A DNA stretch of 64,000 nt, from contig NZ_JAHKPT010000025.1 of NCBI RefSeq assembly GCF_018860635.1, forward strand, positions 105,867-169,866, written 5' to 3'. Each line of letters starts with the position of its first letter. Position 1 is the first letter of the stretch. Positions 39,554-43,451 of the stretch are shown piece by piece. Below the pieces are notes generated by a model. That model saw only the letters and a program-made list of their open reading frames with translations, was not told the DNA's origin and ran no database searches. Position numbers and translations under genes: made by a program. The DNA comes from Aliiglaciecola lipolytica. GTDB taxonomy: Bacteria > Pseudomonadota > Gammaproteobacteria > Enterobacterales > Alteromonadaceae.

Positions 39554-39868
<315 letters not shown>

Positions 39869-40087: not shown

Positions 40088-40324
40088 CGCCTATTACTAA
40101 TAAAAGTCGAGTTTAGAAGGTTTTTTTATAAGTACAACAATTAAGAGAAATAATAGCGATAAAAAACTGTACCAAGGGACAGGTGTATTTTAGTTACCAT
40201 TTCACTAACCTTTTGTTATTGCATTGATGTAGGAAAGTATTAACAACCACATTAGCGCAATAAAGAGTTCGTAGGCGATGTTTAGCCATACGACGAATTT
40301 TAATTAATCAAAAGGAATTCGCAA

Positions 40325-40492
40325 ATGCGAGAATTGAATGTAATGCAATTAGAAGAAGTGAATGGTGGTGTAGCCCCTTTAGTTGTGGCTTTTGGCGCCG
40401 GCATGTCAGCGGTAGGCTATATTAACAGCCTACCGGGGCTCATGGCATTTGGCAGAGGGCTTGGTTTCGGTTGGTATGATGCTACTCATTAA
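40325..40492 (+). CDS. Double-glycine-leader bacteriocin-like peptide 1
   Basis: ATG at 40325 behind an AAGGA encodes 55 residues. The first 15 (MRELNVMQLEEVNGG) form a classic double-glycine leader (hydrophobic at -4, -7 and -12, GG before the cut) as in class II bacteriocins and microcins processed by C39 peptidase ABC exporters. The mature 40 residues are hydrophobic and Gly-rich, with GRGLG and GLGFG near the C-terminus (overlapping GxxxG at mature residues 28-34). The second peptide follows 15 bases later with the same kind of leader. No C39 exporter is in the window, so a trans-acting system is implied. Antibacterial activity is inference. Confidence 0.82.
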   Translation: MRELNVMQLEEVNGGVAPLVVAFGAGMSAVGYINSLPGLMAFGRGLGFGWYDATH

Positions 40493-40507
40493 TTAAAAGG
40501 AGCTTTT

Positions 40508-40663
40508 ATGATCGAATTAAATAAAATTGAATTAGTAGAAGTTTCAGGAGGAATGCCCGACAACGAAGTCACAGGTTACGCTATCGGCTACGGTGTTGGG
40601 TATGTGTTCGGAGGAAAAGCTGGTTACCAACTTGGGATCTCCATATATAACTTATTCCACTGA
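40508..40663 (+). CDS. Double-glycine-leader bacteriocin-like peptide 2 with GxxxG ladder
   Basis: 51 residues, start at 40508 with AAAAGGAG before it. The leader MIELNKIELVEVSGG matches that of the first peptide in length and layout (ELN at 3-5, EV four residues before GG). The mature 36 residues contain glycines at positions 8, 12, 16, 20, 24 and 28, that is, five consecutive GxxxG steps, within TGYAIGYGVGYVFGGKAG. Such ladders pack transmembrane helices in two-peptide (class IIb) bacteriocins. It shares the transcript with peptide 1 and is followed by a terminator-like hairpin before the two small membrane genes. Confidence 0.82.
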   Translation: MIELNKIELVEVSGGMPDNEVTGYAIGYGVGYVFGGKAGYQLGISIYNLFH

Positions 40664-40679
40664 TTTAGCTCAATGATAG

Positions 40680-40708
40680 AAGGGGATATGCCTCCCCTTT
40701 TATTTTTT
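40680..40708 (+). terminator. Terminator or attenuator between the peptides and the immunity-like genes
   Basis: AAGGGGA (40680-40686) pairs with TCCCCTT (40693-40699) around TATGCC, followed by TTTATTTTTT. It would separate high expression of the two peptides from lower read-through into the two membrane genes. Confidence 0.85.
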
Positions 40709-40736
40709 ATAAAACAAAAATTTTTAAGGAAGTGTT

Positions 40737-40949
40737 ATGGACCGTAAATTTATAATATTCGCCAATGCTATTTTATTTTTTATGATAGCTACTAATCTCT
40801 GGAGTGCGACTTATAGTTGGATTGTGAATGATATTGATATGTCAACTAATCCCAATTTACAAACCGCTTTGCTCTATATCATCTGCGGTTTTTTGTTCAA
40901 TGAGTACACAACAGAAAAATCCTCAAAAACAGATAGCAATGAAGGCTAA
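40737..40949 (+). CDS. Small two-helix membrane protein, possible immunity protein 1
   Basis: 70 residues with two hydrophobic helices (about 5-23 and 43-55) and a polar charged tail. It resembles the following gene: both are 70 residues, share the pattern K-x-I-x-F near the start, NP in the loop, ALL-x-I-x-GFLFN at the second helix, and an S/K/D-rich tail. AAGGA lies seven bases before the start. Small membrane proteins next to two-peptide bacteriocins are commonly immunity proteins; here the number of proteins matches the number of peptides. Confidence 0.75.
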   Translation: MDRKFIIFANAILFFMIATNLWSATYSWIVNDIDMSTNPNLQTALLYIICGFLFNEYTTEKSSKTDSNEG

Positions 40950-40953
40950 TAAT

Positions 40954-41166
40954 ATGCCACCTAAATTAATCACCTTTATAAATTGGATATTTTATATAGC
41001 GATTGGATTCGCCTTCATACAGGCAATCGGTGACTGGTATGGACAAGGAACTGATATACTCGCAAATCCTATTATGCATGGCGCAATGCTGTTAAGCATT
41101 ATGGGCTTTTTATTCAACCAAAATGTGAAACCAAGCGAGTCCGATAAGAAGCAATCTAAATCTTAG
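40954..41166 (+). CDS. Small two-helix membrane protein, possible immunity protein 2
   Basis: The ATG at 40954 gives 70 residues, the same as its tandem relative; AAGG lies before it. The frame is open upstream to 40828, but that part overlaps the previous gene. Helices around residues 7-26 and 41-56, GFLFNQN followed by a Lys/Ser-rich tail. The pair looks like a tandem duplication that has diverged, suggesting each protects against one peptide, or both together. Inference only. Confidence 0.75.
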   Translation: MPPKLITFINWIFYIAIGFAFIQAIGDWYGQGTDILANPIMHGAMLLSIMGFLFNQNVKPSESDKKQSKS

Positions 41167-41228: not shown

Positions 41229-43451
41229 ATGGCAACAGAACTTGTGATTGAAGAGACTCTTCAAAAAATAGACAGATTGTTAGAAGCACATCCTTCATTG
41301 ATGGATGCTTATCAGCAATTGGAACCGATTATTCTGAATTTGTTTGAAGCGCAGCGTATGAGTATTTTTCAACGCAGGCGTCAACATCAAGACTTGGTTG
41401 CCCGTTTTAAAACGGGTAAAGAGACACTTCAAATTAAAGTTCCTATCAGTCCCCAGTCCATAGCTGGGTATGTTGCACTGAGTCAAAAACCATTATTGAT
41501 TAGTGATCCTTATAATGCGCAAGAGCTCGCGGAAATACATCCTCGCCTAAAGTTTGCCGACAAATTTGATAAAAACAGTTCCTTTAAAACTGAAAATATC
41601 ATTTGTGTGCCGATTTTGAACGCCGGCGTGTTGATGGGCGTAATGCAGATTATTAATAAAAAAGTAGGTTCCTTTGGTGATGCCGACCTGCGCTTAGCGA
41701 ATTCGTTGTCAGAAATATTAGGCAATAAATTTCGTTATGAGTTAGGTGGCACCACTAATCCGTTTGATTATCTTGTTCATCGCAAATTGATGTCTGAAAA
41801 AGATCTCAAACAATTTACTGAATCCAGTAAAGATATCCGCCAGTTAATCCAACGCATGGTATCAGAAGCCCGTATCCCTGAAGATGAATTGGGTAATGCA
41901 TTATCAGTTCACTATCAAGTTCCTTATATTAGTTATCTTCCTGAGAAATATCACGTATTACAAAGTGGCAATAAATTAAACCTGTCTTATTTAAAACGAA
42001 ACTACGTTGTGGTGTTAGCAGACGCCTCTGAAAACCCGATAGTTTTAATGGCAGAACCTAACAATGCTGCACTTTTGATGGAAATTGAAAGCGCATTAGG
42101 GATAGACAGTTATGAAATCTCCGTAGGCTTGCCCAATCAAGTTTTACAATATTTAGGGGCAGGCGGTGGTGGTGGTACGCCAGGCGAGATGGATGAAATA
42201 CTGGACGAAATTGGTACCAGTAGTGAAGAATTAGATGATACCAGTGAGGAGATGTCGGATGATGCTCCTGCAGTGGTACGTTTGGTTAGTCGTGTTCTGC
42301 ACGACGCAAAACGACTAAATGCGTCAGATATTCATGTGGATCCAGAAAAGAACGGTCCAACTCGGGTACGAATGCGTATCGACGGTGTTTGTCGAGATAT
42401 TACACAAGTTCCAGCGTCCCACCATAGTGCGGTCATTGCCCGTATAAAAATCATGTCAAACTTGAACATCGCAGAAAAGCGTGTCCCTCAAGATGGCAAG
42501 TTGGCATTTAAAATGTCTGGCCAATTGGTTGAAGTTCGGGTCGCGACAATACCCACAGTAGCCGGCGAAGGCGTGGTCATGCGGATATTGGCCTCAGGTG
42601 GCGCCTTGCCTATTGAAAAAATGAACATCTCACCAAAAAATATGAGCATGTTGCGGGTAATGATCAAAAAGCCCCATGGAATATTGCTAGTTGTAGGTCC
42701 AACTGGTTCAGGTAAAACTACCACTTTGCATGCAATATTGGGATATTTAAACACACCAGATAAGAAAATTTGGACTGCCGAAGATCCGGTGGAAATAACC
42801 CAACCTGGTTTACAACAAGTTCAGGTCAGTCCCAAAATAGGTTTTACCTTTGCTAATGCATTGCGGGCTTTCTTGCGGGCCGATCCGGATATCATCCTGA
42901 TTGGTGAAATGCGGGATAAAGAAACCGCTCATGCCGGTATTGAAGCATCCTTAACCGGTCACTTGGTGCTTTCGACTCTGCACACAAATTCAGCGCCAGA
43001 AACAATAACCCGATTATTAGATTTAGGATTAGATCCGGTTAACTTTTCTGATGCCTGTGTTGGTATTATGGCGCAACGTTTGATTCGTACATTATGCTCT
43101 AACTGCAAAGAAGAATATGAAGCTTCCGAAACAGACATGGCATTTATCCGCCGTCAATACGGTGAAGAATATCTTCAAGAACTGGATCTTCAAGAGCCAT
43201 TGAGGTTGCACCGAGGAAAAGGTTGTGATGATTGCGGTGACACTGGTTATAAAGGAAGAACCGGTGTACATGAACTTCTCACCATGACTCCAGATCTTCG
43301 CTCGCTTGTCTACAAAGAAGCATCGGTAACAGAAATGAAAGCCCAGGCAATGCGAGACGGTATGCGTACTCTTACCCAAGACGGTATTTTGAAAGTCTTA
43401 AAGGGTGACACTGATATCGCGCAAATTCAGATCATCAGTGGGGCTGATTAA
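41229..43451 (+). CDS. GspE/PilB family secretion ATPase with N-terminal GAF domain
   Basis: 740 residues. An N-terminal GAF-like region (about 20-170; FKTENIICVPILNAGVLMGV, LANSLSEIL), then a type II/IV secretion N-domain (about 180-290), an acidic linker and a T2SSE ATPase with Walker A GPTGSGKTTT, Walker B RADPDIILIGEMRD, and the zinc-binding C-terminal part with CSNC and CDDC. It should power a pilus or secretion machine, but no partner pil/gsp/msh genes adjoin. The GAF domain suggests ligand or signal control. It follows the immunity-like pair by 62 bases without clear promoter. Confidence 0.93.
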   Translation: MATELVIEETLQKIDRLLEAHPSLMDAYQQLEPIILNLFEAQRMSIFQRRRQHQDLVARFKTGKETLQIKVPISPQSIAGYVALSQKPLLISDPYNAQELAEIHPRLKFADKFDKNSSFKTENIICVPILNAGVLMGVMQIINKKVGSFGDADLRLANSLSEILGNKFRYELGGTTNPFDYLVHRKLMSEKDLKQFTESSKDIRQLIQRMVSEARIPEDELGNALSVHYQVPYISYLPEKYHVLQSGNKLNLSYLKRNYVVVLADASENPIVLMAEPNNAALLMEIESALGIDSYEISVGLPNQVLQYLGAGGGGGTPGEMDEILDEIGTSSEELDDTSEEMSDDAPAVVRLVSRVLHDAKRLNASDIHVDPEKNGPTRVRMRIDGVCRDITQVPASHHSAVIARIKIMSNLNIAEKRVPQDGKLAFKMSGQLVEVRVATIPTVAGEGVVMRILASGGALPIEKMNISPKNMSMLRVMIKKPHGILLVVGPTGSGKTTTLHAILGYLNTPDKKIWTAEDPVEITQPGLQQVQVSPKIGFTFANALRAFLRADPDIILIGEMRDKETAHAGIEASLTGHLVLSTLHTNSAPETITRLLDLGLDPVNFSDACVGIMAQRLIRTLCSNCKEEYEASETDMAFIRRQYGEEYLQELDLQEPLRLHRGKGCDDCGDTGYKGRTGVHELLTMTPDLRSLVYKEASVTEMKAQAMRDGMRTLTQDGILKVLKGDTDIAQIQIISGAD

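Follow-up and report, generated by a model that had tools for sequence, protein, structure and literature searches.

A four-gene cassette beside rpsJ

Four small plus-strand genes occupy positions 40325-41166 of the window (the whole 64-kb stretch of DNA that was analysed), flanked upstream by rpsJ (39554-39865, minus strand) and downstream by a gene for a GAF-containing T2SSE ATPase (41229-43451). Precursors of 55 aa (peptide 1, 40325..40492) and 51 aa (peptide 2, 40508..40663) are the products of the first two. Each precursor starts with a 15-residue double-glycine leader, MRELNVMQLEEVNGG and MIELNKIELVEVSGG, respectively, and each gene is preceded by a ribosome site of the AAGGA/AAAGGAG type, in agreement with a preliminary description of this DNA that had pointed to paired genes of 55 and 51 codons with such leaders and a ribosome binding site apiece. 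The mature part of peptide 1 has 40 residues and the end GWYDATH; that of peptide 2 has 36 residues. A scan of the 64 kb for the leader pattern returned only these two open reading frames, against a mean of 0.025 in 40 Markov shuffles, a null that is tilted in favour of the finding because the pattern was written after the peptides had been seen.

Do these peptides have the character of class IIb bacteriocins? GxxxG steps had been claimed for both. The five steps in peptide 2 stand out from 100,000 composition shuffles (P = 0.0019), whereas the two in peptide 1 are at chance level by the same measure (P = 0.38). Peptide 1 passes the NCBIfam class IIb model TIGR03949 (27.8 bits, cut-off 21.5), with a match over residues 3-30 that is largely leader; peptide 2 matches none of the NCBIfam class IIb models. 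Class IIb mature peptides are usually cationic, and the net charges here are 0 and -1 (K/R minus D/E). Although it would function in the manner of a class IIb bacteriocin, the cassette is not filed as a full class IIb member because peptide 2 has no class IIb model match and the peptides are not cationic. Of the class IIb layout with immunity first proposed, the paired exported peptides and the membrane immunity proteins find support, whereas strict membership is only half borne out, the TIGR03949 match and the GxxxG enrichment each being confined to one peptide. Searches of plasmids with peptide 1 and of phages with the cassette DNA gave no match.

A terminator-like hairpin separates the peptide genes from the two genes that follow. 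It is real and has a T-rich tail; the stem lies at 40675..40704 (plus strand), the hairpin having originally been given as 40680-40708, and its energy is only modestly better than that of shuffles (z -1.2 to -2.1). A hairpin of differing letters is found at the same place in four species. Next are OrfA (40737..40949) and OrfB (40954..41166), homologous proteins of 70 aa each that are 30% identical and are candidate immunity proteins. That these resemble one another as two-helix proteins is upheld by the comparison and by an AlphaFold2 model of OrfA, which places helices at 3-31 and 39-68 (mean pLDDT 84.5, six-sequence alignment); the motif said to be common to both is only approximate, with ALLYIICGFLFN in OrfA and AMLLSIMGFLFN in OrfB. 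The OrfA model gave nothing at E <= 0.001 against the PDB, and neither protein gave anything above cut-off against Pfam and NCBIfam. One further feature lies ahead of peptide 1, a 20-bp imperfect palindrome, AAAACTGTACCAAGGGACAG, at 40163..40182 (plus strand), which is a candidate regulator site.

Conservation of the cassette and its putative immunity family

All four genes are found at this site in the genome of the window (G000), in a second genome of the same species (G190) and in G001 and G003. A fifth cassette (G007) has both peptides and one membrane protein, the OrfB copy, and OrfA is absent. Three Aliiglaciecola species therefore carry all four genes and a fourth species three of the four. 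No such cassette is present within 1.5 kb upstream of rpsJ in G002, G004 and G006, and in G005, a 59% complete genome, the search for rpsJ gave no match. Peptide 1 homologues at the same site are 95% (G003), 85% (G001) and 65% (G007) identical, and peptide 2 is kept beside peptide 1 in G001, G003, G007 and G190. In a search with peptide 1, 27 of 60 relatives had a match at E <= 1, four of them a strong one with its own genome counted. Divergence within the cassette is mostly silent and the coding genes are conserved: between G000 and G003, dN/dS is 0.045/1.69 for peptide 1, 0.15/2.18 for OrfA and 0.16/1.71 for OrfB, and between G000 and G001 it is 0.11/1.58 for peptide 2, all with rough dS values that above 1 are near saturation (two peptide 2 comparisons were saturated). 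The leaders are kept while the mature parts diverge, most clearly in G007, as would be expected had the leaders been rightly recognized.

How widespread are such peptides? The preliminary description held this layout to be rare in Gram-negative marine bacteria, and that is contradicted by how common the peptide pairs are in the family. A peptide profile (A2) matches 76 of 295 family genomes at E <= 0.01, and adjacent pairs (two matches within 300 bp, among 150 listed matches) occur in at least 26 of the 295, a count that takes in G000 and G190 of one species. In similar pairs from other genera, one peptide has a glycine-rich stretch and a terminal Y-D-x-x-H and its partner has GYxxGY-type glycine repeats; the last Y and H are invariant in the A2 alignment (11 sequences). 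Individual loci show varied surroundings. In G019 (C1, L042) the HlyD and C39-ABC genes enclose a double-glycine pair, and a CPBP-like gene is nearby; another pair adjoins a C39-ABC exporter gene in G038 (C5, L043). In a different genus (G063:C21, L235), a double-glycine pair and a two-helix protein are found beside rpsJ in the orientation opposite to that of the window.

The 70-aa proteins follow the peptides closely. A profile built from seven sequences (A1) has nine strong places, all within the five cassette genomes, and weak matches in 90 of 295 genomes at E <= 0.1, of which G285 and, through a later profile, G255 were inspected and the remainder dropped as chance without individual reading. 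The best weak match (G285, another genus, E 1.9e-4) sits directly behind two double-glycine peptide genes. Adding G285, G212 and G279 (the latter two met earlier beside peptide pairs) gave profile A3, which at E <= 0.003 hits 14 places, spread over 10 of the 295 genomes. Every one of the 14 adjoins double-glycine peptides, so that the co-occurrence on which the first proposal depended is exclusive. G285 was blind to A1, and G063 and G255, which are not rows of A3 and have a family protein beside two double-glycine peptides, were blind to A3. A single family protein accompanies two peptides in six genomes (G007, G212, G279, G285, G063 and G255), which favours one immunity protein per pair; Aliiglaciecola would then have a second copy. 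In G027 a CPBP/Rce1-like protein stands behind the peptide pair in place of the 70-aa family. Position, the two-helix model and the exclusive co-occurrence suggest that the OrfA/OrfB family behaves like small membrane immunity proteins.

An unlinked exporter locus and a shared palindrome

How would the peptides leave the cell? There is no C39 match in the window, as had been noted from the sequence, and a whole-genome search for the C39 peptidase domain (PF03412) found two places. One is a C39-ABC exporter of 719 aa on contig C24, not linked to the cassette on contig C4. The other is an open frame of 339 aa, too short to be such an exporter. The genome thus has a single candidate C39-ABC exporter, the complete absence of which would have counted against the first proposal, and the Cys, His and Asp of the C39 triad are visible by eye in its translation, as read directly and not from an alignment to CvaB. 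The exporter locus (L034:2927-7895) encodes, in order, a 417-aa HlyD protein, the exporter, a 73-aa LuxR-type (GerE) protein, a 61-aa peptide ending in TTMAIGEEGGSFGNWF and a 309-aa ATP-grasp protein. The graspetide-like label for this locus is tentative, since the ATP-grasp protein scores 116 bits against TIGR04187 (graspetide maturase type), below the cut-off of 350, and the 61-aa peptide is without a family match. Graspetide loci often contain C39-ABC and HlyD genes (PMC8939145). The exporter adjoins a precursor gene of its own, which counts against a role for the cassette. Use of one exporter by two systems has a precedent in the verified microcins, two pairs of which are described as each using one exporter (PMC9746304). 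The locus is present in all seven genus genomes inspected (G000-G004, G006 and G007), with or without the cassette. A C39 match over cut-off was found in each of the first eight pair genomes opened (G000, G001, G003, G007, G019, G025, G027 and G038), a co-occurrence that alone is weak because 40 of 60 relatives also have C39 domains over cut-off.

The exporter locus has its own copy of the palindrome, and this link to the cassette is new here. When the upstream regions are aligned, one block stands out as conserved against a diverged background; it contains AAAACTGTACC and GGACAGG or GAACAGG halves. The cassette palindrome is conserved in five genomes of four species, and in G000, G003 and G001 the same palindrome also occurs in the exporter locus, where it directly follows the LuxR-type gene and precedes the 61-aa precursor; at this graspetide-type position G007, G004 and G006 have only a half-site-like stretch. 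Within the 5 Mb of G000, the pattern AAAACTGTACNNNNGNACAG is matched exactly at just two places, the cassette and the exporter locus, and its reversed control at none. The exact matches in nine genus genomes number ten, at five cassettes, at four exporter loci and at one place in G004, and each precedes a double-glycine or graspetide-type precursor; seven of them had served to fit the pattern, and of the remaining three, two belong to G190, of the same species. A tolerance of one mismatch brings in 14 additional places, and two in the control. The G004 place (L139:1501-2094, C25), in a genome that lacks the cassette, has a different double-glycine precursor of 65 aa 141 bases behind the palindrome and then a 65-aa membrane protein.

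Across the 295 family genomes there are 47 exact matches in 17 genomes (both strands counted), against one for the reversed control. Outside the genus, 28 distinct sites were inspected, among 43 listed of the 47 matches; the four others lie in G063. A leader rule applied within 300 bp marked nine of the 28, one falsely (a ComEA signal peptide), leaving eight; among the controls, it marked none of the 54 centres and 32 of the 1350 dense positions. The rule had been re-spaced after a first spacing marked none of the ten genus sites, and it now marks just six of these because graspetide leaders are missed; two chance open reading frames were also picked up. Two more double-glycine-like genes at palindromes outside the genus (L168 and L181) were judged by eye. 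Six palindromes outside the genus precede transposase genes and two precede comEA-like genes, and several have no clear partner.

Other neighbours of the palindrome are recorded here. It lies 59-168 bases before look-alike transposase genes at L166, L170, L175, L180, L184 and L185 (G063 and G161), whose REP-associated type was assigned from an NCBIfam match below cut-off, for the L139 copy only. That copy, a REP-associated-type transposase gene in G004, lies on the other side of the palindrome from the 65-aa precursor. In another genus, the palindrome stands about 90 bases before the comEA-like genes (L173 of G104 and L182 of G063). At L187 (G104:C1:4625300) the double-glycine frame behind it is broken by a stop codon and seems to be a member in decay. 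A near-match lies between def and a LysM-domain gene in G000 (L152:1501, G000:C16:7560) and was seen in G000, G190, G001, G003, G005 and G007, three of these six loci being inspected and LysM assigned by Pfam in G000 only. The gene that follows at the def locus is presumably dprA, going by the gene order in Vibrio (PMC6237807).

Which regulator might act on these sites? The short shared palindrome ties the cassette to the exporter locus, and from the two sequences a common regulator may be supposed. The palindrome may resemble a lux box. LexA sites have a CTGT-N8-ACAG frame, and the palindrome shares it. Could the palindrome be a LexA (SOS) site, the cassette being damage-induced as colicins are and the exporter link reflecting a shared SOS response? 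This concerns only the regulatory part of the interpretation. The yebG genes of G005 and G006 do have CTGTAC-type versions (L140 and L144). However, the G000 sites before recA, lexA, dinB and yebG are of the CTGTAT type, although the search fixed the T, and differ from the palindrome in the sixth base and in the centre within the same frame; most palindrome matches have a pyrimidine-NN-purine centre; and G007 and G004 have AACTGGAC at the homologous position of the graspetide-like locus, with the CTGT core broken. LexA is a less likely regulator of the cassette, though a live candidate.

It can be proposed only speculatively that, in Alteromonadaceae, killing by peptides and uptake of DNA are tied together in one regulon marked by the palindrome. 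Its single regulator, for which the LuxR-type protein encoded beside the exporter is a possible candidate, would activate the double-glycine bacteriocins and the exporter/graspetide locus, as well as comEA and REP-associated transposases in another genus. In the genus itself this link is mostly not borne out: comEA-like genes are found in all eight genus genomes searched, and the AAnACTGKAC half-site is present in none of the seven parsed upstream regions (L242-L248; L241 of G134 was left out), all seven of which share the stretch AAACTAGACTTTAC. If true, the regulon would be a Gram-negative counterpart of competence-linked fratricide, with secreted peptides replacing type VI secretion. QstR, a LuxR-type protein of Vibrio cholerae whose binding motif is described as not known, connects competence to type VI killing (PMC6237807); the comparison is only an analogy.

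Function of the cassette and comparison with known systems

The cassette is probably best explained as coding for a two-peptide bacteriocin that is class II microcin-like, is exported in trans and comes with self-protection. The C39 domain of the exporter would recognize both double-glycine leaders and cut after GG, and the genome's only C39-ABC exporter and its HlyD partner would secrete both peptides. The two glycine-rich peptides may then act jointly on the inner membrane of related bacteria, with synergy in damaging it, and OrfA and OrfB, as two-helix membrane proteins, would protect the producer. The hairpin after peptide 2 may lead to more peptide than immunity message, and the palindromes, one ahead of peptide 1 and one at the exporter locus, would place cassette and exporter locus under one regulator.

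Might the locus hold two separate one-peptide bacteriocins, with OrfA as immunity protein for one and OrfB for the other? The similar age of the two peptides and the two membrane proteins would fit this arrangement, as would the G007 cassette, where OrfA is missing and peptide 2 is most diverged; it is nevertheless unlikely, as pairing of the peptide genes is seen again and again, in at least 26 of 295 genomes, and six genomes have one family protein beside two peptides. It is quite improbable that the peptides serve as signals or act on the producer itself in autolysis, and not on competitors. Double-glycine peptides with C39 processing can act in autolysis, as described for the nap island of Neisseria gonorrhoeae (PMC11798529), and a LuxR-type regulator gene does lie in the exporter locus; but dedicated membrane proteins follow the peptides wherever the 70-aa family occurs, and elsewhere a CPBP/Rce1-like protein takes that position, both of which fit immunity better. 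If the two-peptide bacteriocin interpretation is true, a two-peptide form with its own immunity family across a marine family would offer a large set of narrow-spectrum antibacterial candidates. The immunity family would predict which genes belong to such systems, and, with the palindrome present at both loci, export in trans and co-regulation are open to direct testing.

Double-glycine bacteriocins of Gram-negative bacteria have already been described (PMC2761928 and PMC11798529). A literature search, mostly without subscription journals, found no report naming Aliiglaciecola together with a bacteriocin and nothing on a two-peptide GxxxG bacteriocin in Gammaproteobacteria; a two-peptide bacteriocin with Alteromonas gave just general reviews. 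Verified class II microcins numbered only ten in 2022, the majority from E. coli (PMC9746304), and a 2026 abstract adds Serratia.

Four known systems invite comparison. McbABCI of Moraxella catarrhalis is likewise a Gram-negative double-glycine bacteriocin and has a 74-aa immunity factor, but it consists of one 101-aa peptide with the exporter in the same operon, and its immunity factor is predicted to have four helices (PMC2761928). The N. gonorrhoeae nap island resembles the cassette in combining several double-glycine peptides with an immunity-like gene; it differs in that its peptides are cationic, in a separate C39 peptidase, in a FapF-like channel and in acting in autolysis rather than competition (PMC11798529). 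With the class IIb bacteriocins (lactobin A/cerein 7B, lactococcin G and plantaricins) the cassette shares an adjacent pair of double-glycine precursors, kept in four species here, glycine-zipper repeats in peptide 2, immunity genes that follow, and the passing of TIGR03949 by peptide 1. It is set apart from them by a Gram-negative producer, peptides that are not cationic, a peptide 2 without a model match and two related immunity-like genes. The class II microcins of Enterobacterales (microcin V type) have a double-glycine leader, a C39-ABC exporter, an HlyD-type partner and a small membrane immunity protein (PMC9746304), a likeness to the cassette that rests on components, not on a sequence match to verified microcins. 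They have one peptide, whereas the cassette has two short ones, and their exporter is next to the precursor, whereas that of the cassette would be supplied from an unlinked locus.
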